NCBI GenBank assembly: GCA_946480825.1
Contig: CAMLLG010000009.1
Location: 1-64,000, forward strand
DNA: 64,000 nt
Reading direction: 5' to 3'
Origin: an uncultured Lysobacteraceae bacterium
GTDB taxonomy: Bacteria; Pseudomonadota; Gammaproteobacteria; Xanthomonadales; Xanthomonadaceae
The notes under the pieces were generated by a model that did not search any database, was not told the DNA's origin, and saw only the letters and a list, made by a program, of their open reading frames with translations. The position numbers and the translations under genes were made by a program. Positions 1,101 through 21,673 of the stretch are shown here, piece by piece. Numbering within the stretch: the stretch's first letter is position 1; every line of letters starts with the position of its first letter.

Positions 1101-3446
1101 TCAACTGCCGAAAAACCGATCCAACGCCTTCTCCGCCTGCCCGCGTTCGTGATCGGACATGGCGCGGGTCACCGCGCGGTAGTCTTCGATCAGCGCGGGG
1201 TCGTTGGGCATTTTCGCGGCGAGCGCGTCGAGCACTTCGCCGCGTTCGAAGTCCGAGGACATCGCGCGCACGCTGCGCAGGATCGCGCGGCTGCGGTCGG
1301 TATCCGGCGCGCCGCCGCGGATCAGCGCGGACAGCGCCTCGCGTTTCTCGAAATCGGAGGACATCGCATCGACGGCGGCGAGATAGTCGGCGACGGGCAG
1401 CGGTACGTCGGCGTCGGCCGCGACTTCCAGCAGCGAGCGCCGCTCGAAGTCGCTGTTCATGCCGCGCATGGTCTGCAGTGCGAGGGCGAGCGCCGCGGCG
1501 CTCGGCTGGCCGTCCTCGATCACCGCGGTCAACGCACGCCTGCGCTCGAAATCGCTCTCCAGTCCGTTGAGCGCGCGCGTCCAGCCGGCGGCGTTGGCGC
1601 CGTCCACCGGCAGCTTCTCGGCGGCATCGATCAACCACTCGGCGCGTTCGAAATCCGAATCGATGTCCGCGGCGATCGACAGCAGCGCGGTCTGGTGTGC
1701 CGGCGCGATCTGCGGCCGCGACAGGGCGATGGCCAGCGCGCGCCGCTTCTCGAAGTCGGAACGGATCGCGCGCATCAGGGTCAACGCTTTCGAGATCTGC
1801 GCATCGTCGGGATCGCCTTGGGCGAAGAACTGTCCGAGATATTCGGCGCGGACATGATCGCCGTGCAACTGCGCGATCTCGGCGAGCAGCGCGTCGGCAC
1901 CGCCGCGCGCCAGGATCCGTTTCGCGCGGGCCTCCGCGTCCAGGCCGCTCATCCGGTAGATGCGCGGAATGGCGGTCGCGAGCCAGGCCCCGGCGTCGGC
2001 ATCGAACGGCCGCGCGACGCCATCGACCTTGTACGCGCGCACCGCGGCGTTCGCACCCGGGGTCATGCGCAGGCTGCGCGAAACGCCGGCCTGCGTCTGT
2101 TCGATCTCGAACACCGCGCCGCTGCCCAGCGTCGCAACGTCGCTCTCGGCGTCGTTGAAGGCGACATCGCCGTCGATGACGACGCGCAGGGTTTCGCCCG
2201 CGACCGGCAGATCCGAACGGATCGCATGGGTCTGTCCGTTCTGGCGGATGGTGACCGACAGATCGTGTCGGTCGAGCAGACCGGGAATCATGCCGGGCCG
2301 CGCCACCACCATCACGCCCGGCAGGGCGATGAGCGCGAACAGCGCAAGAGCGGCGGCGGTCCAGCGCCAGCGCAGGGGAATCGTCGACAGCGTCATGGGT
2401 GCGTTCTCCAGAAGAGTGCGGACGCGCGGGACGATGCCGTCGCCGCGCTCGGCCATCGCCAGCGCCAGTGCGGCGCCGCGATCGAAGGGAATGGGGCGGC
2501 GGGCATCGGCCGCCTGCGCGCTGCGCGCGAGGCATTCGGCGAGACATTCCGCGAGCGCCCGGCCATCGCTGCGCTCCGCGGCCGTCCGATCGCACAGCGT
2601 CTCGGCCAGGGTTTCGAGCCGGCGCAGCGCGTGCCAGGCCAGCGGGTGGAAGAACAGCGGCACCAGCGCCAACCGCTGCAGCGGCCGCCACAGCGGATCG
2701 CGACGGCGCAGATGCGCCAGTTCGTGCGCGAGCATCGCGCGCAGCTGCATGCGATCAAGGCCTTCGGCCCAGCGCGGCAGCAGCACGACGCCCGGCAGCA
2801 CCATCGGGCTGGTCAGCGCCGGCAGCACGCGCAGCTCAGGCGCGGTCACGCTCATCTCTGCGGCGAGTGTCTGCAGCGTCGATGTGGTCTCGGCCGAAGC
2901 CTCGCGACCGTCACGCAGCACGCGGCGACGCATGCGCAGCAGCGCGCGCATCTGATGCGATACGCGCAGCAGCAGCACGGCACTGCCGAGACACCACAGC
3001 AGCAGCGCGAACAACATCGCATCGGCGGCGAGCGGCAAGGCGACACCCGGGGTCGCATCGTTCACGGGCACGACCGCGTTCGATGTCGTGCGCGGGACGA
3101 CGGGCGCCACGGCGGCATCGATGGACACGGCCTCCGCAGCTAATGATGCGGAGACAAGCGGCGATGACGCCACGGACGATGTCGGGATGGCTTCGGCGAC
3201 GACCACCGGCGATGCGCGCGACCCGCGCAGCGCATCGAAGGACACCGCTTCGATCGCCACCGAGACGAAGGCGCCGAACAGCGCGATCCGCCAGGCGAGT
3301 TCGGCCCAACCCGGATGCTTCAGCCAACCCGCGCGCTCCATCGCCCATACCGCGGCGAGCAGCACGGTCGCGTGCAGCACGAAGGCCAGCAGCAGACCCG
3401 CGAACGACGCCAGTGGCAGCGCGTCGACGGCGACCGTTCCGATCAT
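1101..3446 (-). CDS. BlaR1-like M56 membrane metallopeptidase with seven C-terminal SDFE repeats
   Basis: The 781-residue protein has N-terminal membrane segments (about 10-40, 50-70, 138-160) and an M56 zinc-protease motif HELAH at 241-245 with a downstream ETLCD that can supply the third ligand. Another membrane segment lies at about 360-385. BlaR1/MecR1 proteins of this family cleave the partner BlaI repressor when they sense a signal. The penicillin-binding sensor domain of BlaR1 is absent. Instead, the C-terminus carries seven helical repeats of about 34 residues, with SDFE at 563, 597, 631, 665, 697 and 731 and SDHE at 764. The ATG overlaps the stop of the blaI-like gene (ATGA), so the two are translationally coupled. 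The ligand cannot be told from sequence. Confidence 0.88.
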   Translation of the reverse strand: MIGTVAVDALPLASFAGLLLAFVLHATVLLAAVWAMERAGWLKHPGWAELAWRIALFGAFVSVAIEAVSFDALRGSRASPVVVAEAIPTSSVASSPLVSASLAAEAVSIDAAVAPVVPRTTSNAVVPVNDATPGVALPLAADAMLFALLLWCLGSAVLLLRVSHQMRALLRMRRRVLRDGREASAETTSTLQTLAAEMSVTAPELRVLPALTSPMVLPGVVLLPRWAEGLDRMQLRAMLAHELAHLRRRDPLWRPLQRLALVPLFFHPLAWHALRRLETLAETLCDRTAAERSDGRALAECLAECLARSAQAADARRPIPFDRGAALALAMAERGDGIVPRVRTLLENAPMTLSTIPLRWRWTAAALALFALIALPGVMVVARPGMIPGLLDRHDLSVTIRQNGQTHAIRSDLPVAGETLRVVIDGDVAFNDAESDVATLGSGAVFEIEQTQAGVSRSLRMTPGANAAVRAYKVDGVARPFDADAGAWLATAIPRIYRMSGLDAEARAKRILARGGADALLAEIAQLHGDHVRAEYLGQFFAQGDPDDAQISKALTLMRAIRSDFEKRRALAIALSRPQIAPAHQTALLSIAADIDSDFERAEWLIDAAEKLPVDGANAAGWTRALNGLESDFERRRALTAVIEDGQPSAAALALALQTMRGMNSDFERRSLLEVAADADVPLPVADYLAAVDAMSSDFEKREALSALIRGGAPDTDRSRAILRSVRAMSSDFERGEVLDALAAKMPNDPALIEDYRAVTRAMSDHERGQAEKALDRFFGS

Positions 3447-3826
3447 GACTTGCCCTCCTCGTCCGCACGCTGCAGCAATGCGCGCACCTGTTCGAGATCG
3501 CTCTGCGCCACCTCGCGCTCGCTGACCAGATGCGCCAGCAGCGCCTTGGAATCGCCCCGGAACACCTGCGCGATCAGGCTGGACACCATGGTCCGGCGCA
3601 CCTGGGCCTCGGTCACGCACGGCCGGTACACGAGCATCCTCCCGTCGCGGCTCGCCTCGACGACGCCGCGCTTCTCCAGGCGGCTCAGCAACGTGGCCAC
3701 GGTGGTGTGGGCCAGATCGCGGTCGGCCAGCGCCTCGGTGACCTCCGCCACGCTCAGCGCTCCGCCCCGCCACAGCACCCGCATCAGATCCAGCTGCAGG
3801 TCGCTCAATACGATGTCGTCGGCCAT
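3443..3826 (-). CDS. BlaI/MecI/CopY-family transcriptional repressor
   Basis: This 127-residue winged-helix protein has the typical family length. The N-terminus (ISDLQLDLMRVLWRGGALSV type) and TVATLLSRLEKRGVVEASRDGR form the helix-turn-helix and wing; the C-terminal half is the dimerisation region that M56 proteases of this family cleave. It is the first gene of a two-gene minus-strand operon and overlaps the M56 gene by 4 nt. Its promoter lies within a large palindrome, so autorepression is likely. The ribosome binding site GAGGAAAGG, just before the ATG, is itself part of the palindrome. Confidence 0.93.
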   Translation of the reverse strand: MADDIVLSDLQLDLMRVLWRGGALSVAEVTEALADRDLAHTTVATLLSRLEKRGVVEASRDGRMLVYRPCVTEAQVRRTMVSSLIAQVFRGDSKALLAHLVSEREVAQSDLEQVRALLQRADEEGKS

Positions 3827-3829
3827 GTC

Positions 3830-3875
3830 GGCCTTTCCTCTACAACTGTAGTACTACAGTTGTAGAGGAAAGGCC
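3830..3875. promoter_or_regulatory. 46-bp perfect palindrome, presumed BlaI-type operator over promoter and RBS
   Basis: Bases 3830-3875 read identically on both strands, centred on the AGTACT at 3850-3855, with TACAACTGTA / TACAGTTGTA half-sites. BlaI/MecI/CopY operators are TACA...TGTA dyads, which fits. On the minus strand a promoter can be drawn with -35 TTGACG (3888-3883), an 18-nt spacer and -10 TACAAC (3864-3859), so the dyad covers the -10 and reaches the ribosome binding site of the blaI-like gene 3 nt from its ATG. The operator role is inferred; the symmetry is seen directly. Confidence 0.8.
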
Positions 3876-3907
3876 CGGAAGGCGTCAAGGGGCTGAAGGT
3901 CATGGTC

Positions 3908-5467
3908 TCAATCTCCGGCGCGGATGGCGTGTCGCTCGACGATCCAGGCGCCGTCACTGTAGGCAAGACGCACATCGCCGACCTCCGCATCCACGGCTGG
4001 GGTCACGCTGGGGTTAATCAGTTCGCGATAGGTCCGCACCGCAGCGGGTCTCGGTTCGCTGGTGAACAACATGCGCGCACCGCTCTCGGCCGACGCCAAC
4101 TGCTGGGCGAATCGCGCGAACGCGTCGGATGGGCGGTGTTCGTCACGAGGCTTGTGCGAAAGCAGGAGATAGGCTTCGTCCTGCTGCTCGTCGAATCCGG
4201 CATCCAGCAGCGCGTGATAGAAATATTTGTTGTGGCCCGCATGATGCGCGACCTGCACGACATCCAGACGGCCTTTCAATACCCCAATCAGCGCAGGGTG
4301 GAATCTCAGTTCATTCGCATGGGGATCCATCGGAAAATCGACGAACCCGGAATCGCCAGTGATGAGCACGCGACGATCAGCGTGCGCGAAGACCATGCTG
4401 TAGCTCAGCTCGTTGCTGGGCGTGATGTTCTCCACCGGGATGTCGGCCACGAGCGCCAGCGCCATGTAGTTTCCGGTCGGCAATCTCTTCCAGTGCTTCC
4501 TGATCAGGCCGATCGAAGGACCCAACAACGTCATGAACGTGCCCTTTCTCGGGCGCCCCCGCGCCCGCAGAAACATTCGGCTCCCCGCATGCCATTTGAA
4601 GTGGACGGGCTTCCCGTCCGGAATATATTCAAATCGCATCGGGACGCCCTTGGCCTTGAGCGCGACGACGACCTTGTTCAGGAAGCTGGCAGTGATCGCG
4701 CCCTTCGCGATGCTTTTCTCGATGTACGCCAGGCTTCGCCGCGCAGCCATCGGGTTCGTGCGGCCGGACGACATCATCGCCAGCAGTTCCCGATCCGTCC
4801 ATCGCCAAATCCCGCGGCGACGGAATTCCGAAAGATCGAGCGGGGGACGCACGTCGCATTTGGCATGATCCTCGTGATTGCGCACGGAAAGGAACTCGTC
4901 GGCTTCCGCCAGTCGGCGCTTGAAATACTCGACATCCACGGATTCGGGCAGGTCCTCGCCGGAACCTTCATCGGCCGACAGCAAATCTCCGAACGACCTG
5001 TATTCACGTAGTCCGAGCAATCGCCGGCTTTTCAGGATACTCTCGATCTGGACGGCCTTCGAGCGCATATAACGATCGAAATTGGCGCCATCGTCGCCTG
5101 CAGCGAATTTGCTTGCGATGAAATCGGCGGCCCTCGGCGCCTCCCATTCTTCGGCGACCGGCGCGGTATCGTCCGCGACAGGCGGCAACCAAGCCTCGCC
5201 GATCTCGTACTGCTCGATCACCGGCACCATGCGATTGAGATGATCGCTGTCGTAATGGGTACCGATCAGCAGGTCGATCCGCGCGCGATGCCCTTCCGTG
5301 CTTGGCAGGATCGACTGAAGCTTGTCGACGACATGATCGCGACCATAAGCACCGCCGCTGGTCCCCGCGTCCGCGAGGATGGTGACGGTGCGATCCTCGG
5401 CGAAAAATTGAATGAGGATCGAAGCGCCGAGCTGCACTTCGAACATGTCGATCTGAATCTCGGCCAT
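3908..5467 (-). CDS. Stand-alone ComEC-type metallo-beta-lactamase-fold protein
   Basis: The 519-residue protein begins with a short strand region and has the metal motif THYDSDH at about 70-76 (the THxDxDH variant of HxHxDH), then LITGDSGF and a VAHHAGHNKYFYH segment. These are the three metal-binding regions seen in the soluble domain of ComEC/Rec2 and in free-standing relatives. There are no membrane segments, so it is probably cytoplasmic. The ATG at 5467 was chosen because GAGGAG lies 7 nt upstream; the frame stays open for another 185 codons, but over the neighbouring gene. Its substrate is unknown; family members include nucleases and phosphodiesterases. It is followed by the blaI operon in the same orientation after an 82-nt gap. 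Confidence 0.75.
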   Translation of the reverse strand: MAEIQIDMFEVQLGASILIQFFAEDRTVTILADAGTSGGAYGRDHVVDKLQSILPSTEGHRARIDLLIGTHYDSDHLNRMVPVIEQYEIGEAWLPPVADDTAPVAEEWEAPRAADFIASKFAAGDDGANFDRYMRSKAVQIESILKSRRLLGLREYRSFGDLLSADEGSGEDLPESVDVEYFKRRLAEADEFLSVRNHEDHAKCDVRPPLDLSEFRRRGIWRWTDRELLAMMSSGRTNPMAARRSLAYIEKSIAKGAITASFLNKVVVALKAKGVPMRFEYIPDGKPVHFKWHAGSRMFLRARGRPRKGTFMTLLGPSIGLIRKHWKRLPTGNYMALALVADIPVENITPSNELSYSMVFAHADRRVLITGDSGFVDFPMDPHANELRFHPALIGVLKGRLDVVQVAHHAGHNKYFYHALLDAGFDEQQDEAYLLLSHKPRDEHRPSDAFARFAQQLASAESGARMLFTSEPRPAAVRTYRELINPSVTPAVDAEVGDVRLAYSDGAWIVERHAIRAGD

Positions 5468-5608
5468 CACGCGCTCCTCGTGCAATCCGCCCACATGGTT
5501 CGCCCACGACCAGGGCATGCCTCGGACCTGTCGCGGACGTTGCTGGACTTTACGAAATCCTACCGCCGCCATGCATACTGGGCGCATCCCCCGCGGAAAG
5601 GAATTGCC

Positions 5609-6016
5609 ATGTCGCCGCTGCCGCTGTCGTTGTTCGCGCTGTTCTCCATCGCCGCCTGCGCGCCCATGGCGCCGGACTCGGTGTCTGGCTCCGGACCGGA
5701 TGCGACGCAGCCCGACTCGGCGGAACCCGGCGCCGCCGATCCGGCGGATGCCGCCAGCGGCGACAAGCCGGTCGAGGGTCCGGAGCCGCCGGGCATCGTG
5801 CGCTTGCCCGAGGGCGAATGCGATGCCGCGCCCGCGCAGCGTTATGTCGGGCAGAAGGTCGACAGCGCGGTTGTTCAGGCGGCGCTGACGGCGACGAAGG
5901 CCAAGCAGGTGCGGGTGATCGAGCCCGACATGATGGTCACCATGGATTTCCGCAGCGATCGCCTGAACGTGCGCGTCGACAAGGACGGCAAGATCATCGA
6001 GATCACCTGCGGCTGA
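5609..6016 (+). CDS. I78-family peptidase inhibitor lipoprotein
   Basis: This short 135-residue protein starts with a lipoprotein signal (LFALFSIAAC, lipobox Cys near residue 15), followed by an acidic, Pro/Ala-rich linker. The C-terminal 65 residues carry the I78 pattern: CDAAPAQRYVGQKV, then VRVIEPDMMVTMDFRSDRLN and a terminal CG. I78 inhibitors are small potato-inhibitor-like blockers of serine proteases such as elastase. The two cysteines of the domain probably form a disulphide outside the cytoplasm. AAGGA lies 6 nt before the ATG. It precedes the secreted ribonuclease gene by 83 nt in the same direction. Confidence 0.85.
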   Translation: MSPLPLSLFALFSIAACAPMAPDSVSGSGPDATQPDSAEPGAADPADAASGDKPVEGPEPPGIVRLPEGECDAAPAQRYVGQKVDSAVVQAALTATKAKQVRVIEPDMMVTMDFRSDRLNVRVDKDGKIIEITCG

Positions 6017-6099
6017 CAGCATCCGATTTGACGCCGATCAGCATCGGCGCCGTCGCATGGGCACACAGTAGGCCGACACAGCGGCAGGAGAGATCGACG

Positions 6100-6627
6100 A
6101 TGCGTTCGAAATGGATCGCGGTGGTGGCCGTGGCCTTGCTGGCCGCGCTGGCGTGGCACAGCGCGCGCACGCCCGAGACAACGCAATCGACGCCATCGAC
6201 GACGTCGCCCGCCGCCATGCCGCCGGCCGGCTCGGCAGCGCCCGATCCACTGGAAATGCCGCCGCCGTTCGCGGAGACCGCGAAACGCGAGGCCTCCGCG
6301 GACACCGCGGGTTATCCGGATTTCCTGCCGCCCGAAGCCATCGACACGCTGCAGACGATCGCGCGGGGCGGCCCGTATCCGTATCGCCAGGACGACGGCG
6401 TGTTCGGCAACCGCGAACGCCGGCTGCCGTCGCAGCCGCGCGGCTACTATCGCGAATACACGGTCGACACGCCCGGTTCGCGCGATCGCGGCGCGCGGCG
6501 GATCGTCGCCGGTGGACGTCCGCCGGTCGAATATTTCTACACCGACGATCACTACCGCAGTTTCCGCCGTTTCACGCTGGACGGCACGAACAACGGTACG
6601 AACGACGACACGGCGGCGGCGCGATGA
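6100..6627 (+). CDS. Secreted guanyl-specific ribonuclease (barnase/N1-T1 family)
   Basis: The 175-residue protein has an N-terminal membrane or signal segment (WIAVVAVALLAALAW) and a Pro/Ala/Thr-rich linker, then a microbial ribonuclease domain. Motifs are LPPEAIDTLQTI, FGNRE..LP (with the catalytic Glu expected in this strand), YYREYTVDTPGSRDRGARRI and FYTDDHYRSFRRF (with the catalytic His). This matches the barnase/Sa class, which cleaves RNA after guanosine. Its TGA overlaps the ATG of the barstar-like gene, giving a coupled enzyme-inhibitor pair. An AGGAG sits 10 nt before the ATG. Confidence 0.88.
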   Translation: MRSKWIAVVAVALLAALAWHSARTPETTQSTPSTTSPAAMPPAGSAAPDPLEMPPPFAETAKREASADTAGYPDFLPPEAIDTLQTIARGGPYPYRQDDGVFGNRERRLPSQPRGYYREYTVDTPGSRDRGARRIVAGGRPPVEYFYTDDHYRSFRRFTLDGTNNGTNDDTAAAR

Positions 6628-7061
6628 ACACGATCGAGCTCGGCGCGCTGCTGGCGGATCCGACCCAGGCCGGCGCCTATTTCGTCGACGCGCGCGACCG
6701 CGAATCGCTGGTCGAAGCCGGCGGCACGCTGCAGTTCGCGGTGCTGCCGATCGATCTGCGCAGCTGCGCGGACGCCGACGCGGCGATGCGCGAAATCGCG
6801 GAGACGCTGCGTTTTCCGGAATGGTTCGGCGGCAACCTCGACGCACTGGCCGACTGTCTCGCCGACCTGTCGTGGCTGCCCGCGGACGGTTACGTGCTGG
6901 TGCTCGAACACAGCGGCGAGTGGCGCGCGCACGAACCGGACACGATGGGCGCGGTGCTGGAAATCCTCAACGACAGCGCGACGCGCTGGGCGCGGGATCG
7001 CGTGCCGTTCTGGTCGTTCCTTCCGGTGTCCGCGCAGGAACTCGAAGCCATCAACGCATAG
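6624..7061 (+). CDS. Barstar-family ribonuclease inhibitor
   Basis: The 145-residue cytoplasmic protein matches barstar: IDLRSCADADAAMREIAETLRFPEWFGGNLDALADCLADLSW contains the hallmark FP.wFG.NlDAL.DcL segment whose helix and acidic residue plug the active site of barnase. It should neutralise unexported ribonuclease from the gene just upstream. The ATGA overlap with the ribonuclease gene means that inhibitor synthesis is tied to enzyme synthesis. It is longer than Bacillus barstar (about 90 residues) because of extra N- and C-terminal segments, as is common in proteobacterial members. Confidence 0.9.
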   Translation: MNTIELGALLADPTQAGAYFVDARDRESLVEAGGTLQFAVLPIDLRSCADADAAMREIAETLRFPEWFGGNLDALADCLADLSWLPADGYVLVLEHSGEWRAHEPDTMGAVLEILNDSATRWARDRVPFWSFLPVSAQELEAINA

Positions 7062-7066
7062 CTTTT

Positions 7067-7135
7067 GTAGGAGCGCCGGAAGGCGCGATCGGCTGCGGAA
7101 ACTCATTCACCGGTCGCGCCTCACGGCGCTCCTGC
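7067..7135. repeat. REP-like inverted repeat
   Basis: GTAGGAGCGCCGGAAGGCGC and its imperfect complement GCGCCTCACGGCGCTCCTGC form arms of about 26 bp separated by about 17 nt. It sits between the convergent barstar-like and MFS genes and may also end transcription. The same GTAGGAG...CTCCT(A/G)C design recurs at 13201 and 31302. Confidence 0.8.
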
Positions 7136-7163
7136 GAAAGCAGTGACGCGATGCGGGGCGCGG

Positions 7164-8438
7164 TTACGGCACCGGATCGGGCACCGCGTTGATCTCCGCC
7201 GCTGGCGCCCGCGCGAAACGCCAGGCGACGACCACCGCGCAGGCCAGCAATGCCGCGGCGATCAGGAAGGCGATGCCGGGCAGGTGCATCGGTGCGCGCG
7301 GGCCGATGAAATACCCGAACGAACCGGCGAACACCGCCGGTGCGGCGATGCCGGCCAGCGACACCAGACTGCTCAACGCGCCCTGGATGCGGCCCTGCAC
7401 CTCCGGCCCGACCTGCCGCGTGATCAACGCCTGCGTGGCCGGCGCGGCGATCGCCCACAGCGCGCTGATCGGCAGGCCGAGCATGAAGATCCAGCCGGCG
7501 CCGGCGAAGCCGTAGATCACGAAGCCGACGACACCGCAGCACAGACCGAACAGGATCGCGCGGCGCTCGCCGAGCCGCTTCACGAGCTTGCCGACCAGCA
7601 CCGCATTCACGATCACGCTCAGCACGCCGACCGCGGCCAGCACGTAACCGGCCTCTTTTTCCTTCCAGCCGAAACTTTCGTCGGCGAACAGCACGAACGT
7701 GCTCGGGTACACGTAGTGCGCGAAATTGGCGAGGAACACCAGCGCGACCAGGCCCCAGATCTGCGGGTAATTGCGCAGCAGATGCACCGAGCCCATCGGT
7801 TTGGCGTGCGCCCAGTCGAACGTCGGCGAGCGGCGCTCCTTCGGCAACGATTCCGGCAATACGAACACACCGTAGGCGAAATTGATCAGCGCCAGCGCGG
7901 CGGAGAACCAGAACGGCAGACGATGGTCGATGTCGCCGAGCAAGCCGCCGATCACCGGGCCGACGATGAAGCCCAGGCCGAACGCCGCGCCGATCATGCC
8001 GAAACTCTTCGCGCGGTTTTCCGGCGTGGTGATGTCGGCGATATAGGCGTTCGCGGTGGTGAAGCTGGCCGAGGTCGCGGCGGAGATGAGACGGCCGACG
8101 AACAGCCACGCGAGATTCGGCGCCAGCGCCATGAAGATGAAGTCGACGCCCAGGCCGAGGCACGACAGCAGGATCACCGGGCGCCGGCCGAAGCGGTCGG
8201 ACAGCGCGCCCTGCACCGGCGCGCTGAAGAACTGCACGACCGCGAACGCGGTGCCGAAAATCCCGACCCAATAGGCCGCCGTCGAGGTGTCGCCGCCGAC
8301 GAAGCTTTCGACCAGATGCGGCAGCACCGGGATGATCACGCCGAAGGCGAGCACATCGATCAGCACGGTGACGAAGATGAAGACGAGCGCAGCCTGACGG
8401 CGTGCACCCGCGAGAGGCGTAGGGGCAGGCGAATTCAC
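7164..8438 (-). CDS. TetA-like MFS drug/H+ antiporter
   Basis: The 424-residue, 12-helix transporter carries MFS motif A in the first cytoplasmic loop (GALSDRFGRRPVIL), FGVIIPVLPHLV in helix 1 and IGAAFGLGFIVGPVIGGLLG, the motif-C-like antiporter signature in helix 5. The overall pattern is that of the TetA(class C/G-like) family, but these proteins are usually general efflux pumps in this group and tetracycline transport is not shown. No in-frame ATG precedes the first helix closely; GTG at 8438 gives the expected N-terminus. It is divergent from gltB. Confidence 0.85.
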   Translation of the reverse strand: MNSPAPTPLAGARRQAALVFIFVTVLIDVLAFGVIIPVLPHLVESFVGGDTSTAAYWVGIFGTAFAVVQFFSAPVQGALSDRFGRRPVILLSCLGLGVDFIFMALAPNLAWLFVGRLISAATSASFTTANAYIADITTPENRAKSFGMIGAAFGLGFIVGPVIGGLLGDIDHRLPFWFSAALALINFAYGVFVLPESLPKERRSPTFDWAHAKPMGSVHLLRNYPQIWGLVALVFLANFAHYVYPSTFVLFADESFGWKEKEAGYVLAAVGVLSVIVNAVLVGKLVKRLGERRAILFGLCCGVVGFVIYGFAGAGWIFMLGLPISALWAIAAPATQALITRQVGPEVQGRIQGALSSLVSLAGIAAPAVFAGSFGYFIGPRAPMHLPGIAFLIAAALLACAVVVAWRFARAPAAEINAVPDPVP

Positions 8439-8673
8439 GGGCGGGGGCGGAGGACCGAGACGAAGGCCGCAGTCTAACCCGCGAGGTTGTCGTGGCGGCC
8501 GGACCGGGGCGGGGAAGGGGTGCGCCACCCCCGTTGCCGCAGTGCACCATTTGTGCTTTAGTCGGGTCATCCAGCGACAGGACCGACGCGGACCCACGGG
8601 CCCGTCAGGGAATCGTCGCCTTCCCATTCTTGATGGCGCGACTGGTGGCGCCACCAATCCCGGAGCTCTTCCG

Positions 8674-11600
8674 ATGGAAAGCGATCAACGCGGCGGCACA
8701 CGTCTCTACGATTCGCGCGACGAGCGCGATGCCTGCGGTTTCGGACTGATCGCACACCTCGACGACCGCCCCGGACGGGAACTGGTGACCCAGGCGCTGG
8801 ACGCGCTGTCGCGCATGGCCCATCGCGGCGGCATCGCCGCCGATGGCCTCTCCGGCGACGGCTGCGGCATCCTGCTGAAAACCCCCGACGCCTTCCTCCG
8901 CGCGCTCGCGGCCGAATCGGGCATCGCCCTGGGTCAGCGCTACGCCTCGGGAATCGTATTCATGCCGCACGACGACGACGCGATCGCGCGCGTGCGCGCC
9001 GCGTTCGCGCAGACGCTGCGCGAGGTCGGGCTGGCGGTGTCGGGCTGGCGCAAAGTGCCGACCGATGCCTCGGTATGCGGCGATCTCGCGAAGGCGACGA
9101 TGCCGGCGATCGAACAGCTGTTCGTGGTCCCCGTGCTGGACGTGGAAGGCGCGCGCATGACCCGCGAGGCCTTCGCCCATGCGCTGTATCTCGCGCGCCG
9201 TCGTGCCGAGCAGCGCCTGCGCGATGTGCCCGGCCTGCATGTGATCAGCCTCTCCGCCAGCAGCATCGGCTACAAGGGCATGGTGCTGCCGCAATACCTG
9301 CCGCAGCTGTATCCGGACCTGCAGCGACCGGAACTGGCGAGCAGCGCGGTCGTGTTCCATCAGCGCTTCTCCACCAATACCAGTCCGCGCTGGCCGCTGG
9401 CCCAACCCTTTCGGCTGCTGGCGCACAACGGCGAAATCAACACCATCGCCGGCAATCGCATCTGGGCGCAGGCGCGCGCGCACGTGTGGCGCACGGAAAC
9501 GCTGGATCCGTCCGAGTTCACGCCGGTGATCGAAACCGCCGGTTCCGATTCGCAGAGTCTGGACTCGATGCTGGAACTGCTGCAGGCCGGCGGCATGGAC
9601 CTGCTGAAGGCGCTGCGCATCCTGATTCCGCCGGCGACCCAATCGCTCGAATACAAGGACGCCGATCTGCTCGCGTTCTACGAGTACTACGCGATCAACA
9701 GCGAACCGTGGGACGGCCCGGCCGGCATCGTCGCCTTCGACGGCCGCTACGCCGCCTGCACCGTCGACCGCAACGGCCTGCGCCCCGCGCGCTGGCAGCT
9801 GAGCGACGACCGCATGTTCATGGTCGCCTCCGAAGCCGGCGTGTGGGACGTGGCGCCCGCGCGCATCCTCGCCAAGGGCAAGCTCGGTCCGGGGCAGATG
9901 ATCGCCGCGGATCTCGATGCCGGCCGTCTGCTCGATTCCGACGCGATCGATCAGATCAACCGCGCGCGCGCGCCGTACAAGCAGTGGCTCAAGCAGGGCA
10001 TGACCTACCTGCACACCGAACTGGTCGACCCGAATCTCACCGCGGCGCCGTTCGATGCGGGCACCCTGTCGGGGTTCCAGAAACTGTTCCAGCTGACCCG
10101 CGAAGAACGCGAGCAGATCCTGCGCCCGCTGGCGGAAACCGAACAGGAAGCCGTCGGCTCGATGGGCGACGACGTGCCGATGGCCGCGCTGTCGGGCCAG
10201 ATCCGGCCGTTGTACGACCGTTTCCGCCAGGCGTTCGCGCAGGTGACCAATCCGCCGATCGATTCGCTGCGCGAAGACTGCGTGATGTCGCTCGGCACCC
10301 AGATCGGCGAGGAAGGCAACATCTTCATCGACGGTCCCGAGCAGGTGAAGCACGTGATGCTGAACTCGCCGGTGCTGTCGCAGCGCAAGCAGCGCCAGCT
10401 GCTGACACTGCCGGATTTCCGCGATTCGCATCGTTATCTTGACCTGAACTTCAGCGCCGAGGAAGGCCTGCGCGCGGCCCTGCTGCGCCTGTGCGACGAG
10501 GCCGAATCCGCCGCGCGCGCGGGCGTGAAGCTGCTCATCCTCACCGACCGCCGGCCGCGCCGCGATCATCTGCTGGTGCACGCGCTGCTCGCCACCGGCG
10601 CGGTCCATCAACATCTGGTCAAGCTGGGTCTGCGCTGCGCCGCCAACCTGATCGTCGAGACCGGCACCGCGCGCGATCCGCATCACTTCGCCTGCCTGAT
10701 CGGCTACGGCGCGACCGCGGTGTATCCGTATCTCGCGTACCAGACCCTGCACGATCTCGGCGAGCGCGGCATCCTCAAGACCAAGCACGGCGAAGCCACC
10801 CAGATCGGCCGCAGTTACCGCCGCGGGATCAAGAAGGGCCTGCTGAAGATCATCTCGAAGATGGGCATCGCCACCATCGGCAGCTATCGCGGCGCGCAGT
10901 TGTTCGAGATCGTCGGCCTCGACCGCGACGTCGTCGAGCTGTGCTTCACCGGCACGCCTTCGCGCATCGGCGGCGCCACCTTCGACCAGTTGCAGGCCGA
11001 GACCGCGCGCATCGCCGAGCGCGCCTGGGACAACAGCGTGCTGCCGGACATCGGTGGCCTGCTGCAGTTCACGCCCAACGGCGAGTACCACCAGTACAAC
11101 CCCGACGTGGTCACCACTCTGCAGCGCGCGGTGCGCAGCGGTCTGCGCGACGACTGGAACGCCTACGCCGACGCGGTGAACTCGCGCCCACCGGCAGCGC
11201 TGCGCGATCTGCTCGCGTTCGATACCTCGAAGATCAACGCGATTCCGATCGACGAGGTGGAGCCGATCGCGAACATCGTCAAGCGCTTCGACACCGCGGC
11301 GATGAGCCTCGGCGCGCTGTCGCCCGAAGCGCACGAAGCGCTGGCGATCGCGATGAACCGCCTCGGCGGCCGCAGCAATTCCGGCGAAGGCGGCGAAGAC
11401 CCGCTGCGCTACGGCACCGACAAGGTCTCGAAGATCAAGCAGGTGGCCTCCGGCCGCTTCGGCGTGACGCCCGAATATCTGGTCAACGCCGAAGTGCTGC
11501 AGATCAAGGTCGCGCAGGGCGCCAAGCCCGGCGAAGGCGGCCAGTTGCCAGGCCACAAGGTCAACGAACTCATCGCGCGCCTGCGCTACGCGCGCCCCGG

Positions 11601-13200: not shown

Positions 13201-14791
<1,591 letters not shown>

Positions 14792-14854
14792 GCCGCACGC
14801 GCACGACGCAGCGCGGATGTCGGCGGGCGCATGCCCGCCGCATCACTTTCCATC

Positions 14855-14985
14855 ACTGTCATCCCGAACGCGGGCAACGCCTGCGGAGGGATCTGCTGTT
14901 TCTTGGAAAGAAGAACCTGTTGGTTTTGACAGGGTGGGTTGCGTTGACAGGAGTTTGGGGGGAGGCGGAGACTTTCGGCTTATGC
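14855..14985. repeat. 131-bp dispersed repeat, copy 1
   Basis: This aligns without gaps to 19905-20035 at a constant offset of 5050. Shared blocks are ACTGTCATCCCGAACGCGGG, GGAGGGATCTGCTGTT, GCGTTGACAGG and GGCGGAGACT. The first 45 bases also match a motif often seen dispersed in xanthomonad genomes (from memory). It starts the accessory segment after gltD and lies 73 nt before an AT-rich gene. In both copies it lies directly upstream of an accessory gene. Confidence 0.85.
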
Positions 14986-15058
14986 TCAGATTGGGATCAA
15001 ATTCCAAATCGGGGCGCAGAGGGAACCGTGCGCGCATTCTTACAGGGAGGGGAACCAA

Positions 15059-15514
15059 GTGGAAGAACTCAGCATTGGCGTTATATCCGGTCTTGTCGCG
15101 AGTCTTATTATCTTCATCTTTCAACTAGGTTATGTACGCATCTTTCGACCGTGGTTCGAAGAGTTTCTATATCGTGATCTGAAGATCGAAGGACGCTGGC
15201 ATGTCGAGTTTACAAGTGCCAGCGATTTTTCCGAAGTAGTTGAACTGAAGCGTCAAGGCCATAGAGTAAGCGGGACCGTAACCGTCACCCAAGGGCCGGA
15301 CCAAGGCAGAATCTACATTATAGATGGCAGCTTCAAGAATCTCATTTTGACACTATCGTTTTCGGGCCAAGACGAGACCCGATTGGACCGTGGAACGTAT
15401 ACGCTTCAAGTTCATAACAACGGCCAACACTTGGATGGTTATTCCGCCTTCTACCAAGATGAAGAAAACAAGATCACTTGTCTTGAATGCATTTGGAAAC
15501 GCCAATCATCTTGA
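15059..15514 (+). CDS. Small membrane-anchored, strand-rich protein of unknown function
   Basis: The 151-residue protein starts with one transmembrane helix (about 5-27, VISGLVASLIIFIFQLGYV). The rest looks like a run of beta strands: IEGRWHVEF, GHRVSGTVTVTQG, GRIYIIDGSF, LILTLSFSG, GTYTLQVHNNGQHLDGYSAFY, ITCLECIWKR. A short anchored beta-barrel of this kind resembles the layout of CBASS effectors such as Cap15, but no specific family could be named and a second membrane helix is missing. The GTG start has GGGAGG about 8 nt upstream. The base composition is clearly AT-richer than the surroundings. It is 108 nt upstream of a DUF4917/SIR2-like gene in the same orientation, suggesting a two-gene unit. 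Confidence 0.65.
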   Translation: MEELSIGVISGLVASLIIFIFQLGYVRIFRPWFEEFLYRDLKIEGRWHVEFTSASDFSEVVELKRQGHRVSGTVTVTQGPDQGRIYIIDGSFKNLILTLSFSGQDETRLDRGTYTLQVHNNGQHLDGYSAFYQDEENKITCLECIWKRQSS

Positions 15515-15622
15515 TCAATCTGGGGCAGAGTGCAGCTTATCCATGCCGCGCCAGAAATCGACACTAAACGGGATTTACTTCCTGCTTTACGGCCCTCCTG
15601 AACTCATCGGATTGAACGCCAA

Positions 15623-16642
15623 ATGGCTCTGATTTCATTCACCGAAGCACTACAGGATTCAAAAAAATGCACTAAGCGTCATCTACTTCTTGGCAACGGC
15701 TTTAGCATTGCATGCCGTCCGAACATTTTTTTGTACGGCAAGCTCTACGAGAACGCCGATTTCAGCAATCTTTCACCGACAGCGAAATTTGCATTCGAAG
15801 CTCTCGGAACACAAGATTTCGAGCGAGTGATTAAGGCCCTGAGAGATGCGCAGAAAATACTCGTCGCATATGGCGCTCCATCTTCTTTTACGCACACTCT
15901 CAGCAATGACGCAGACGCACTGAGAGAGCTTCTTGTAAAGACAATCGCCGCCAGCCATCCCGCATGGCCAGGGGAAATAACAGAGGATGAATATGCATTT
16001 TGTCGTGCATTCATCAGTCCCTTCGACAACATTTATACGTTCAACTACGATCTCCTTCTTTATTGGGCTCAGATGCATACAGAAGAAGGCGCTGATCCAA
16101 AATCAGATGATGGATTCAGAAAGCAAGAAGATAATTACGATGCTGGCTATGTGGTTTGGGAATCAAGCCAAAGTCACGAGCAGAATATGTACTTTCTTCA
16201 CGGCGCACTTCATGTTTTTGACACCGGAACTGAAATCCAGAAATACACTTGGGTTAATACTGGCGTTCGCCTTGTTGATCAAATTCGCGATGCTCTCAAG
16301 AAGGGATTTTTTCCTCTATTCGTTTCCGAAGGAACAAGTCAAGAAAAGCTCGAACGGATTCGGCATAATGATTATTTAGCAAAGGCTTATCGTAGCTTCT
16401 CCGAAATAGGGGGGGCGCTGTTTATCTATGGACATTCACTTGCACCAAATGATGAGCACTACCTTAAGAGAATTGAAAAAGGCAAGGTATCTCACGTTTA
16501 TGTAGGTATCTACGGCGATCCCGAGAGTCCTGCAAACAAGCAGATCACTAGCCGCGCCAATAAATTGGCTACAGCGCGTACCGCCAGGCGCCCACTTAAC
16601 GTGCAATTCTTCGATGCGTCAACCGCGCATGCATGGAATTAA
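15623..16642 (+). CDS. DUF4917 family protein with SIR2-like NAD-binding motifs
   Basis: The 339-residue soluble protein carries, in order, HLLLGNGFSIA (Gly24, Ser28), YTFNYDLLLYW (Asn141, Asp143), YFLHGALHVF (His193) and LFIYGHSLAP (Gly270, Ser272). These line up with the sirtuin/SIR2-like series GAGxS, TxNxD, the catalytic His and GxS, so the residues needed to bind and hydrolyse NAD appear intact. From memory this is the DUF4917 family, often annotated as hypothetical. SIR2-like NADases are common effectors of anti-phage systems such as Thoeris and DSR. The coding sequence is AT-rich and rich in Lys codons AAA/AAG, unlike its neighbours, a sign of horizontal transfer. A palindromic repeat lies 48 nt after the stop. 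Confidence 0.75.
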   Translation: MALISFTEALQDSKKCTKRHLLLGNGFSIACRPNIFLYGKLYENADFSNLSPTAKFAFEALGTQDFERVIKALRDAQKILVAYGAPSSFTHTLSNDADALRELLVKTIAASHPAWPGEITEDEYAFCRAFISPFDNIYTFNYDLLLYWAQMHTEEGADPKSDDGFRKQEDNYDAGYVVWESSQSHEQNMYFLHGALHVFDTGTEIQKYTWVNTGVRLVDQIRDALKKGFFPLFVSEGTSQEKLERIRHNDYLAKAYRSFSEIGGALFIYGHSLAPNDEHYLKRIEKGKVSHVYVGIYGDPESPANKQITSRANKLATARTARRPLNVQFFDASTAHAWN

Positions 16643-16689: not shown

Positions 16690-16771
16690 GTAGGGCGCAT
16701 AAGCGCAGCGTCATGCGCCAGCCTTTCTCGGCCCGTCATGGCGCATGACGCCTTCGGCTTATGCGCCCTAC
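16690..16771. repeat. Palindromic dispersed repeat, copy A
   Basis: GTAGGGCGCATAAGC...GCGTCATGCGCC (16690-16719) is complemented by GGCGCATGACGCC...GCTTATGCGCCCTAC (16740-16771), differing only by three versus five bases in the middle of the arms. It has a 20-nt loop. Related copies in the same orientation are at 21013 and 21553. All three follow the stop of an orphan plus-strand gene within about 60 nt. Confidence 0.88.
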
Positions 16772-16899
16772 CGGTTTCGCGGCAGGTTGCCTTTTAATCG
16801 ATCGAAAGCAGGTCCCTCGCCTGCGGCTCGGGATGACCATTGGTATTGCGGGAAATCGACGCCGGCCATATTCCCCGCGCAACCCGAAGACGCCAGCGG

Positions 16900-18288: not shown

Positions 18289-19374
18289 TTACTGCAGGGT
18301 CCGGCGGCCGGATTCGATGGCGGGCTGATCGACCGCCGGCGTCGGCACCGCGGCCTGCTGCGCTTGCGATGCCTGCTGCGCCTTCAGGGCCTGCTCGCCG
18401 ACACTCGTGGACAGCGCGGTCTGTTCGCCGACGCGCAGGTCGCTGCTGGGCTCGCCCTTGAAGAAGAACACGTTGCGGTCGGTCTGGCCTTGCGCGTTGA
18501 TCACCGTGTTGCCGAAGGTCACGCCGTCGATGCGATCCACGCCCTGCTGCTGCGCGGCGATGGCGACGCTCGCGGCGATGCGCTCGGTCGCGCCGTCGCG
18601 CGCGGGGTCGAGCGGATGCCCCTGCTGCTGCAATGCGCCGAGCGCCTGTTTGTAGAGCGGGTCTTCACGCAGCGCGGCGCCGGCCTGATCCGCGCTCAAT
18701 GCGGGCGTGGACGGCGTGCCGGGTTGGGGACGGCTGGGGGCGTAGAGGCTGTCCATCGTGTTGCCGAGCGCGGCATTGTCGTCGCGATCGGTCTGGAACG
18801 GCGTCACGGTGAGCCGGTCCTGATCCGATCGGTACTGCGCCTGGACCCCGACATCGCGCTGACCCAGGGTGGAATCGAGCTGGGCGCGCACATCGCCGGT
18901 CACGACGGTGGTGCCGTTGGCGTTGGCGCCGACCGCGAGGCTGGCCTGCGGCGTCGCGGTGACGTTGAGCGGATCGCCCGCCACCTGCTGCGCACTGCCG
19001 GTCACGGTCACGCCGACCGCAGTGCGATCCACGCCCGGATCGGGACGCTCGATCCGCATGCCCGGCAATTCGATGTCGCGCACCGTACCGTCCGGAAGTG
19101 TGTACGGCTGGGTGCTGGTGTAGGGCGTGGCCTCACCGGGACGCGACCCGAACGAGACATTGACCTGCCCGCCGTTGATCACGCCGTTGGCAGCATTGAC
19201 CTGCGCGTCGACCGACCACTGCTGGTCCTGCCCGGTGGGGCGGACGATGCCGACGGACGCACCCGAGAATTGCAGGCCGTTGCCGTCGTCGCGGAATCTG
19301 GCATCGACGTTGGTGGCGCCGCCGTCGGCGGTCGTCTGTCGGAAACCACCGGAGACTTCTTTGATATCGGACAT
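18289..19374 (-). CDS. XVIPCD-containing type IV secretion effector (X-Tfe-like)
   Basis: In this 361-residue protein the C-terminal third (about 225-340) matches the XVIPCD domain, which carries toxins to the VirD4 coupling protein of the bacterial-killing type IV secretion system of Xanthomonas, Stenotrophomonas and Lysobacter. The match includes LREDPLYKQALGAL, DRIDGVTFGN, NVFFFKGEPSSDLRV and a Gln/Ala-rich tail. The N-terminal 200 residues have many short strands (AQVNAANGVINGGQVNVSFG, ASLAVGANANGTTVVTGDVR) and no recognised toxin motif. GGAG lies 10 nt before the ATG. X-Tfe genes usually have a periplasmic lipoprotein immunity gene beside them; none is evident here. No T4SS genes are in the window. 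Confidence 0.83.
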   Translation of the reverse strand: MSDIKEVSGGFRQTTADGGATNVDARFRDDGNGLQFSGASVGIVRPTGQDQQWSVDAQVNAANGVINGGQVNVSFGSRPGEATPYTSTQPYTLPDGTVRDIELPGMRIERPDPGVDRTAVGVTVTGSAQQVAGDPLNVTATPQASLAVGANANGTTVVTGDVRAQLDSTLGQRDVGVQAQYRSDQDRLTVTPFQTDRDDNAALGNTMDSLYAPSRPQPGTPSTPALSADQAGAALREDPLYKQALGALQQQGHPLDPARDGATERIAASVAIAAQQQGVDRIDGVTFGNTVINAQGQTDRNVFFFKGEPSSDLRVGEQTALSTSVGEQALKAQQASQAQQAAVPTPAVDQPAIESGRRTLQ

Positions 19375-19904: not shown

Positions 19905-20035
19905 ACTGTCATCCCGAACGCGGGCAACGCCCGTGGAGGGATCTGCTGTTGCGGGGAAAGAAGAGGCTGTTGGTTGTGACAGGTGGGGTTGCGTTGACAG
20001 GGGTTTGGGGGCGGGCGGAGACTGCGGGTTATGGC
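19905..20035. repeat. 131-bp dispersed repeat, copy 2
   Basis: This is the second copy of the repeat at 14855-14985, in the same orientation and ungapped. It lies 70 nt upstream of the orphan gene at 20105. Differences are scattered substitutions such as CTGCGG/CCGTGG, TTCTTGG/TGCGGGG and TTCGGCTTATG/GCGGGTTATGG. Confidence 0.85.
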
Positions 20036-20104: not shown

Positions 20105-20974
20105 ATGTCATCGATCGTCAATGCAATCAGGGACCTCACGGGCCAGCCTGGCAAAGAGCAAATCAAGGCGAACATGGAACTGATGCTGGTCGCCGCCAAG
20201 GCCAGGATCCGCGCCTTCCGGGACGAACTCAACGAAGGCTTCATGAATCCCGCGCAGGTCGACAAGATCCAGATCCCCGGCATCCGGGCGATCCGGTACA
20301 TCGAGCAATACCATGTCGCCTCCAGCGCAAGTTTCAACCAGCAAGTCGCGGATCACCTCGACCAGGCCGTCGCCTCCTTCTTTTCGATCGGCGGCAAGGA
20401 TGCGGAAACGAAGCAATCGGTGCAAAGCGGGATCAAGGCGCTGATTTCGACAGGTCTGGAAGGCTTCATAGGCAGCACCGAAGCCGGCGAGACGGAAGAG
20501 AAGATCTTCGCGATCGTGCCGGAGAATAATGCGATCGTGCGGGCGGATATTTGTCTGTGGAAATACCATTTTTCTGACAAATCGCTGTCCTCGGCGCACG
20601 ACGTCGCCGTGGCCTACATCCTGTGCAAGTCCGTGGTCGACCACAGCAAGCTCACGATCGACGAGCTGATCTATCTCGTGTCGGAAATGATGATGACCCG
20701 CAAACCGTCTACGATCCAATTGGAGGTGGATGGCGACGATAATCCAAAAAATTCGCTTAAGATCAACGTGCTGGCGGACCCGAACAATCCGGGCTTGCCC
20801 CTGATGCGCTCCAAAGAAAAAGAAAAAGAACGCAAAGCGAGCAACTACTATCCGGCGTCACTTGGCGAAGTCTGGAAGACGACCGGTTCGCCGCCTCCCA
20901 TCGGCGTCGTGGAAGCCTACATCGACGAACTGATCAGGGTCTGGAACAAACTGAAGCAGGAGCGGCGGGACTGA
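20105..20974 (+). CDS. Hypothetical helical protein (orphan)
   Basis: The 289-residue soluble protein has no signal peptide or membrane segment and was not recognised. The N-terminal 130 residues look helical (KEQIKANMELMLVAAKARIR, FNQQVADHLDQAVASFFSIG). A central part has EEKIFAIVPENNAIVRADICLWKYHF and a helix-rich segment SSAHDVAVAYILCKSVVDHS. The C-terminus carries a Lys/Glu stretch and a last helix VEAYIDELIRVWNKLKQ. GGAGCAAGGA lies upstream of the ATG. Composition is less GC-rich than the neighbours. It is flanked by repeat copy 2 on the left and palindrome copy B on the right, like the DUF4917 locus. No function is claimed. Confidence 0.7.
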   Translation: MSSIVNAIRDLTGQPGKEQIKANMELMLVAAKARIRAFRDELNEGFMNPAQVDKIQIPGIRAIRYIEQYHVASSASFNQQVADHLDQAVASFFSIGGKDAETKQSVQSGIKALISTGLEGFIGSTEAGETEEKIFAIVPENNAIVRADICLWKYHFSDKSLSSAHDVAVAYILCKSVVDHSKLTIDELIYLVSEMMMTRKPSTIQLEVDGDDNPKNSLKINVLADPNNPGLPLMRSKEKEKERKASNYYPASLGEVWKTTGSPPPIGVVEAYIDELIRVWNKLKQERRD

Positions 20975-21012: not shown

Positions 21013-21103
21013 GTCGGGTGCATAAGCGCAGCGTCATGCACCAGCCTTTCTCAATTGCACCAAGCCATCATGACGCATGACGCCTACGGCTTATGCGCCC
21101 TAC
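21013..21103. repeat. Palindromic dispersed repeat, copy B
   Basis: It has the same design as copy A: GGTGCATAAGCGCAGCGTC (left arm) and GACGCATGACGCC...CTTATGCGCCCTAC (right arm), with the shared loop CCAGCCTTTCTC. The loop is longer, with an extra AATTGCACCAAGCC. It starts 39 nt after the stop of the orphan gene at 20105. Confidence 0.85.
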
Positions 21104-21126
21104 CGGAATGCAGACCTCGGAAGATC

Positions 21127-21492
21127 GTGGAAATCAATGAAAGCATTTTCGAACAGGAGAGACACGTCCAGGATGCAACCCTTCAACTGGACTGCACGAT
21201 CTACGGTCGCGGCCCCGTCCAGGCGGACGGACGCCTCATTGGTCACCCGCTCTACTTCCGAGCGAGACACGCCGGCTGGTCATTCACTCTGTGCGTCAAT
21301 GCCGATGTCGACCCATCCGCGTTGATGGAAGGCGGGACACCTGGTTTCTTCGACGATGGCGAGTTTCGCGGATATGTCTTGTTTGGTGACTATGGCACCG
21401 ATCACGACGCCAGTTATATGCCTTACGCCGAAGCCGAGCGCATCATTCGTGCGTGCGCCGAGCAATTTCTGGCTGAGAGCGGATTGGTTTGA
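21127..21492 (+). CDS. Small hypothetical protein (orphan)
   Basis: The protein is 121 residues from the GTG chosen here (after GGAAG). The frame continues upstream to an ATG at 21055, but that part lies in the right arm of the palindromic repeat. Recognisable stretches are DATLQLDCTIYGRGPVQADG, LYFRARHAGWSFTLCVN, GFFDDGEFRGYVLFGDYG and SYMPYAEAERIIRACAEQFL. I recall similar uncharacterised proteins in proteobacteria but no named family. It is soluble, with no signal peptide. It is bracketed by palindrome copies B and C. Confidence 0.6.
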   Translation: MEINESIFEQERHVQDATLQLDCTIYGRGPVQADGRLIGHPLYFRARHAGWSFTLCVNADVDPSALMEGGTPGFFDDGEFRGYVLFGDYGTDHDASYMPYAEAERIIRACAEQFLAESGLV

Positions 21493-21552: not shown

Positions 21553-21673
21553 CTGCGTCAGCGCAGCTTGATGCACCGGCATTTCTCGATTGCGCCAAAC
21601 CGTCATGGCGCATGCCGCTTTCAGCTGATGCGCTTTTGCTCAAAGCTGGATCCCGGCTTGCGCCGGGACGACG
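21553..21673. repeat. Palindromic dispersed repeat, degenerate copy C, plus a short hairpin
   Basis: 21553-21635 aligns with copy B: CTGCGTCAGCGCAGCTTGATGCACC, CATTTCTCGATTGCGCCAAACCGTCATGGCGCATG and CTGATGCGC. It is more decayed. It is followed at 21651-21668 by the short stem TCCCGGC-TTGC-GCCGGGA, another common dispersed hairpin. Together these fill most of the gap before folE. Confidence 0.7.

Follow-up and report, generated by a model that had tools for sequence, protein, structure and literature searches.

Are two neighbouring genes of foreign-looking composition parts of a single anti-phage machine, or are they separate candidates that came to lie side by side? The question is raised by two genes, here gene 1 and gene 2, on contig CAMLLG010000009.1 of an uncultured Lysobacteraceae bacterium (assembly GCA_946480825.1), within a stretch of 64,000 nucleotides (positions 1 to 64,000) that was analysed as a whole and is called the window below. 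An earlier interpretation, made from the letters of the DNA (the sequence-only reading), had proposed that the pair forms an undescribed abortive-infection module, in which an enzyme hydrolysing nicotinamide adenine dinucleotide (NAD) acts with a membrane partner, and had made the idea depend on whether the two genes co-occur elsewhere. We favour, with a probability of about 0.6, a block of two independently mobile anti-phage candidates that is not one obligate machine. The genes concerned are:

15059..15514, plus strand: gene 1, 151 amino acids, GTG start; predicted single-pass membrane protein of a family without a name
15623..16642, plus strand: gene 2, 339 amino acids, ATG start; DUF4917 / PDC-S21 family, SIR2-like
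13298-14791: gltD, directly upstream of the block, named from its sequence and the sequence-only reading without a family search

The list of open reading frames (ORFs) contains both genes at exactly these positions; they are separated by 108 bp on the same strand, and the GTG start of gene 1 has a GGAGGGG stretch on its 5' side. Both are AT-rich with respect to their surroundings, as the sequence-only reading had noticed: the fraction of G and C (GC) is 0.458 in gene 1 and 0.457 in gene 2, compared to 0.691 in gltD and 0.67 in the window, and at third codon positions it is 0.474 and 0.429, compared to 0.861 in gltD. Among 630 windows of 1 kb (step 100), the 12 with a GC below 0.5 all start between 14801 and 15901, i.e. 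at the gene 1-gene 2 block, and this low-GC patch looks foreign to the surrounding chromosome. A search for gltD in 60 genomes gave a best match of 71% identity (genome G017). In the two best gltD regions with fetched surroundings (L050, 69%, and L051, 60%) neither gene 1 nor gene 2 was found in the 8 kb after gltD, and therefore the block is, on this sequence comparison, acquired relative to both.

Distribution of the two families

No DUF4917 gene was found in any of the six genomes with gene 1 relatives that were searched (metagenome-assembled genomes of Gallionella and of Actinomycetes, Methylobacter, two Marinomonas and one further genome; the host genomes of the relatives in loci L006, L007 and L009, described below, were left out). 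Reciprocally, the gene 1 profile run over 30 DUF4917-bearing loci, with flanks of about 1.4 kb on each side for genome loci and 6 kb for plasmids, revealed a gene 1 relative nearby in none of them; these loci correspond to 28 distinct genes (pairs L040/L044 and L027/L028), weak or partial loci without a BLASTP hit to gene 2 (L029, L030, L031, L042, L043) having been left out. The two families also differ in size: at E<=0.001 the same database yielded 15 gene 1 proteins, including gene 1 itself, and 4962 gene 2 proteins. At higher identity 12 gene 1 proteins (>=60%) compare with at least 120 DUF4917 proteins (>=70%), which suggests that a minority of the closest relatives are paired; the search relies on shared words and undercounts short proteins such as gene 1. 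In larger sets of genomes, which are draws of unstated completeness, the gene 1 profile matched among 369 genomes of one class only the centre genome, which had been chosen for having gene 1, while DUF4917 occurred in 10 others; among 399 genomes of another order DUF4917 occurred in 12 (10 above the cut-off), and among 397 genomes of the order of G017 gene 1 occurred in 1. Entries with identical proteins are P0001 for gene 1 (longest contig 4968 bases) and P0016 for gene 2 (50497 bases); should both derive from a single further assembly, the two genes may there be carried by different contigs.

The surroundings of gene 1 relatives point in the same direction. On the Pseudoalteromonas plasmid pNC201 (L006) the relative lies between attC-like sites at 5877-5975 and 6466-6556, which belong to a series of five on the same strand (5184-8883), next to a tyrosine recombinase. 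The pattern used (TAACAA...GGCGTTA) was fitted after the sites had been spotted by eye in L006, and with this post hoc choice it is matched on average 0.005 times per shuffle in 200 base shuffles of L006 4901-9000; the classical attC pattern (RYYYAAC...GTTRRRY with matching ends) is absent from all seven stretches, L006 included, and the strict attC-like pattern from the window. The Marinomonas relative (L004) lies between sites at 9321-9396 and 10295-10382, found by a looser pattern that was applied without a shuffle control or an integrase search and has a background of its own (strand counts, overlaps included: L004 5+1, L002 0+2, L003 0+1). Judged from these arrangements, gene 1 relatives in Pseudoalteromonas and Marinomonas look like one-gene integron-type cassettes. 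By eye, the pNC201 gene at 8917-9399 resembles the one at 14513-14995 in Marinomonas L004, downstream of the gene 1 cassette; we take both to be nucleotidyltransferase-like. Another relative is carried by a Vibrio inovirus (L009 4983-5459) near a DUF2726 gene, and in the Rhizobium locus (L007, region 3173-6468) a gene with an adenylate/guanylate cyclase domain lies two positions upstream of the relative, the intervening gene encoding an FkbM methyltransferase.

Because the genes were found together in none of the six genomes and none of the 30 loci, and because the gene 1 relatives stand alone, the module idea fails for the inspected relatives, and a conserved two-gene module is not supported among them. 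The word "undescribed" does not hold either, since gene 2 is already listed as PDC-S21.

Gene 2 and its SIR2-like site

Gene 2 is a full member of DUF4917 (PF16263 in Pfam; 248.5 bits over residues 21-338, cut-off 28) and matches the PADLOC phage-defence candidate PDC-S21 over residues 1-339 (430.2 bits), without any difference from this family; it is therefore an already-known defence candidate. All 26 aligned DUF4917 proteins, a diverse set, match both profiles. We know of no tested function of PDC-S21, and a literature search found none either. The four motifs named by the sequence-only reading are all present at the residues it gave:

15692..15706, plus strand: GNGFS, residues 24-28, probable NAD-binding glycine loop; G24, N25 and G26 invariant in the 26 proteins
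16037..16051, plus strand: TFNYD, residues 139-143, with the putative catalytic Asn141; N141, Y142 and D143 invariant in the 26
16199..16204, plus strand: His193-Gly194 of LHG, with the putative catalytic His; both invariant in the 26
16427..16441, plus strand: YGHSL, residues 269-273; G270 invariant, D277 and H279 nearly so in the 26

Since the key residues are invariant across the 26 proteins, the motifs are, as far as an alignment can tell, more than chance. A weak profile alignment pairs TFNYD and LHG of gene 2 with FTTNYDL and LHG of SIR2-HerA (E 0.13 and 0.45), and the best Foldseek matches of the low-confidence gene 2 model in the PDB are antiphage SIR2 proteins. Sequence and predicted structure together support a SIR2 fold with a putative catalytic Asn141/His193 pair. 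The earlier suggestion that the NAD hydrolysis chemistry may be intact stands in this part, namely the fold and the residue pair, while hydrolysis itself would be a further step.

The SIR2 proteins of SIR2-HerA (Nezha), ThsA (Thoeris), SIR2-APAZ of SPARSA, DSR2 and KomBC share with gene 2 the SIR2-like fold and the Asn/His pair. Gene 2 differs from them in being a lone short protein, and no HerA, pAgo, TIR or STAND partner or domain was found in the block; likewise, Pfam, PADLOC and NCBIfam searches identified no Nezha, SPARSA, Thoeris or DSR partner (HerA, pAgo, TIR, long C-terminal domain) in or beside the two genes. In the pertinent excerpt of a study of the Vibrio cholerae Nezha system, immunity is lost with N168A or H227A (PMC11559045), and an excerpt of a study of SPARSA reports that the loss of NAD+ is abolished by N142A or H186A (PMC10781750). 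AbiH (PF14253) matches weakly over the Asn/His half of gene 2; the score of 16.9 bits lies under the family cut-off of 30.9, and we rejected AbiH membership. Among the aligned DUF4917 members, 6 of 26 give AbiH matches (best 3.9e-06). Some DUF4917 relatives sit inside type I restriction loci (at least 6 of 24 lie beside type I restriction genes, a lower bound, ten proteins having been chosen for the Pfam search). Searches of phage records for gene 2, of viral contigs for both genes, and of the PDB by single sequence gave nothing useful.

Gene 1 and the Cap15-type layout

The predicted model of gene 1 comprises one helix (residues 2-40) and an eight-stranded β-barrel (45-148), with a predicted local distance difference test score (pLDDT) of 88, and the hydrophobicity scan finds a single segment at residues 6-24. 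The single membrane helix and compact β-domain of the sequence-only reading are thus both recovered. No family was matched at E<=1 in Pfam, PADLOC or NCBIfam, and PHROG gave one weak match (E 0.072); an exact-word scan of genomes and a search of the PDB with the gene 1 profile gave nothing useful. The family appears to be rare and is without a name. Its larger members (L003 9509-10360 and Marinomonas L004 9419-10297) are lengthened by an N-terminal extension and carry a long insertion that separates the GxW strand from the remaining barrel; by eye the extension could hold a second membrane pass, and the hydrophobicity scan scored one segment in each. The Gallionella relative (L001 2788-3231) contains an in-frame stop and one Marinomonas relative (L005 9419-10297) is split into two frames, so gene 1 relatives are not always kept intact.

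The layout had been likened to Cap15-type membrane effectors. Like gene 1, Cap15 and OptE (S-2TM-beta, PF18153) begin with a membrane segment and continue as an eight-stranded barrel, which opens with a GxW motif in both alignments (by eye), and an S-2TM-beta protein ranks 4 in the BFVD Foldseek list for gene 1, among matches none of which reaches E<=0.001. They differ from gene 1 in having two membrane helices, not one, and in that no CD-NTase or mCpol was found beside gene 1. According to the parts of PMC12657218 that bear on this family, S-2TM-beta proteins combine a two-pass membrane element with a barrel that binds nucleotides, and Cap15 disrupts the membrane, with OptE thought to do likewise. 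Gene 1, with one segment (6-24) on one long helix (2-40), shows no two-pass element, and PF18153 matched neither gene 1 (E<=1) nor 8 relatives (E<=10, where the HMMER filters drop most matches above 0.1); as no profile match was obtained, we rejected membership of the Cap15 family as such. The Cap15 crystal structures are not among the 50 best PDB matches listed, which we do not count as evidence against a kinship. No adjacent cyclic-nucleotide synthase, as expected of Panoptes or of CBASS (cyclic-oligonucleotide-based anti-phage signalling system), was found; the neighbours are gltD, DUF4917 and an XRE-type regulator, the pair being flanked by the first and the last.

More distant comparisons left a signal. 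The gene 1 alignment (A2) compared with six PF18153 proteins, one of which (L057) is a fragment, gave a probability of 6.3% (P 0.0059), in contrast to 0.1% (P 0.67) against the DUF4917 alignment (A5). After removal of 7 close rows (P0002, P0003, P0005, P0006, P0007, P0009, P0011) and addition of L049 the values became 45.5% and 2.1e-4. The full-length hhalign score is 33.9, while 150 column shuffles reach at most 21.8 and the reversed alignment scores 19.6; for the barrel alone the score is 18.7, compared to 16.1 (again the best of 150 shuffles) and 17.05. As the barrel alone barely exceeds its controls, a large part of the signal depends on the membrane segment, a feature that shuffled columns no longer contain. 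Kinship of gene 1 to Cap15 is suggestive only: the predicted helix-plus-barrel anatomy of the earlier comparison stood, the profile match and the two-pass element did not.

Surroundings and proposed roles

The block lies between two kinds of repeats:

14853..14985, plus strand: dispersed repeat of ~130 nt on the 5' side of gene 1; second copy at 19905-20033, 88% identical
16690..16774, no strand assigned: hairpin repeat on the 3' side of gene 2, -59 kcal/mol folded as RNA; copy at 21013-21106, 83% identical

The first ~50 nt of the former match nine places in one of 30 related genomes, so that at least its start is a dispersed element, and a degenerate third copy of the hairpin lies at 21554-21633. 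The same pair, ~130 nt repeat and then hairpin, also brackets, with order and orientation unchanged, the gene at 20105-20974, an arrangement as if cargo had been inserted between two kinds of dispersed repeats. That gene has a lower GC (about 0.55-0.59), and its protein of 289 amino acids matches phrog_25382 (E 5e-28; function of that phrog unknown), with no Pfam, PADLOC or NCBIfam match at E<=1; it is possibly another mobile or phage-related gene. The ORF at 21055-21492 has no Pfam match. On the minus strand, 18289-19374 encodes a protein with an X-Tfes XVIPCD domain, which in the Xanthomonas order is the signal of type IV secretion effectors that kill bacteria. Together with the best gltD match, this domain makes a host from the Xanthomonas/Lysobacter order probable. 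A search for the upstream repeat in plasmids and an Rfam search gave nothing useful, and a promoter and terminator scan showed no clear excess over shuffles.

According to our favoured reading, of two independently mobile candidates, gene 2 would most likely encode a SIR2-type NAD+ hydrolase that acts on its own and is activated when a phage infects; depletion of NAD+ would then kill or stall the cell, i.e. cause abortive infection. The gene 1 protein would most likely be anchored in the inner membrane, the barrel facing the cytoplasm, and work by analogy in the manner of Cap15 and OptE: binding or loss of a ligand would change the barrel and lead to oligomerisation and membrane damage.

Several observations speak against this. 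The co-occurrence analysis covers relatives of up to 76% identity to gene 2 and 40% to gene 1, with the closest ones (77-85% and 60-72%) outside its scope, and a joint arrival agrees with the equal GC of the genes and with the mere 108 bp that separate them. As no sensor domain is evident in DUF4917, gene 2 may need a partner. Its predicted model has a mean pLDDT of 64.2, with residues 157-254 below 50; the Foldseek list contains one match at E<=0.001, and the four antiphage SIR2 chains in it are followed by RecBCD and by many CD38 chains over short stretches. For gene 1, the barrel fits avidins and designed barrels best, and no match reached E<=0.001 in the PDB or BFVD, so that the fold says little on function; the distribution of charge about the helix is only slightly asymmetric and differs from one relative to another. 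Finally, the cyclase-domain gene in Rhizobium does not fit the idea that gene 1 relatives lack a cyclase.

An avidin- or lipocalin-like identity of gene 1, as a membrane-anchored barrel binding small molecules with a role in housekeeping, stress or superinfection, would leave defence to gene 2 alone; the structural matches just given suit it, but the cassette-like and inovirus locations and the DUF4917 neighbour favour a phage-related role, as does the full-length Cap15 similarity, which beats 150 of 150 column shuffles (these break the membrane segment too), and we consider it rather unlikely. An obligate two-gene module, in which a membrane partner would serve the SIR2 enzyme as infection sensor or as anchor, gains from the adjacency, common strand and equally low GC of the genes, from the likeness to the SIR2 of SIR2-HerA, which likewise is without an evident sensor domain and depends on HerA (in the excerpt of PMC11559045), and from the fact that the DUF4917 loci with readable context all lie at or below 76% identity to gene 2; it is improbable in view of the absent co-occurrence, the 15 against 4962 proteins (the short one undercounted) and the one-gene cassettes. 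That gene 2 is a SIR2 fold with another activity (deacylase, base exchange) or belongs to a toxin-antitoxin pair is slightly less probable still, for although SIR2 deacylases occur further down among the structural matches (ranks 27, 40 and 50) and no DUF4917 assay was found in the literature, the top structural and profile matches are antiphage NAD hydrolases, and family members sit in restriction loci.

Within the reading as two independently mobile candidates, we tentatively put forward, as a guess with the odds against it, that gene 1 represents an orphan single-pass Cap15/OptE-like branch without a dedicated cyclase, which is spread by filamentous phage and in one-gene cassettes and responds to a small molecule of host or phage. 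In a bolder form, which would concern the close relatives, the barrel may sense a product that the neighbouring SIR2 enzyme makes from NAD. As far as profiles can tell, the gene 2 family is known as a candidate, and the gene 1 family is without a match in Pfam, PADLOC and NCBIfam. DUF4917 is widespread, and its apparently intact SIR2-like site and the type I restriction context of some of its genes make the question of NAD+ worthwhile. If gene 1 is a relative of Cap15 without a cyclase, barrel effectors would no longer be confined to CBASS and Panoptes and would include one-gene systems that fit into an integron cassette or an inovirus, and it would be interesting to determine which ligand the barrel binds.
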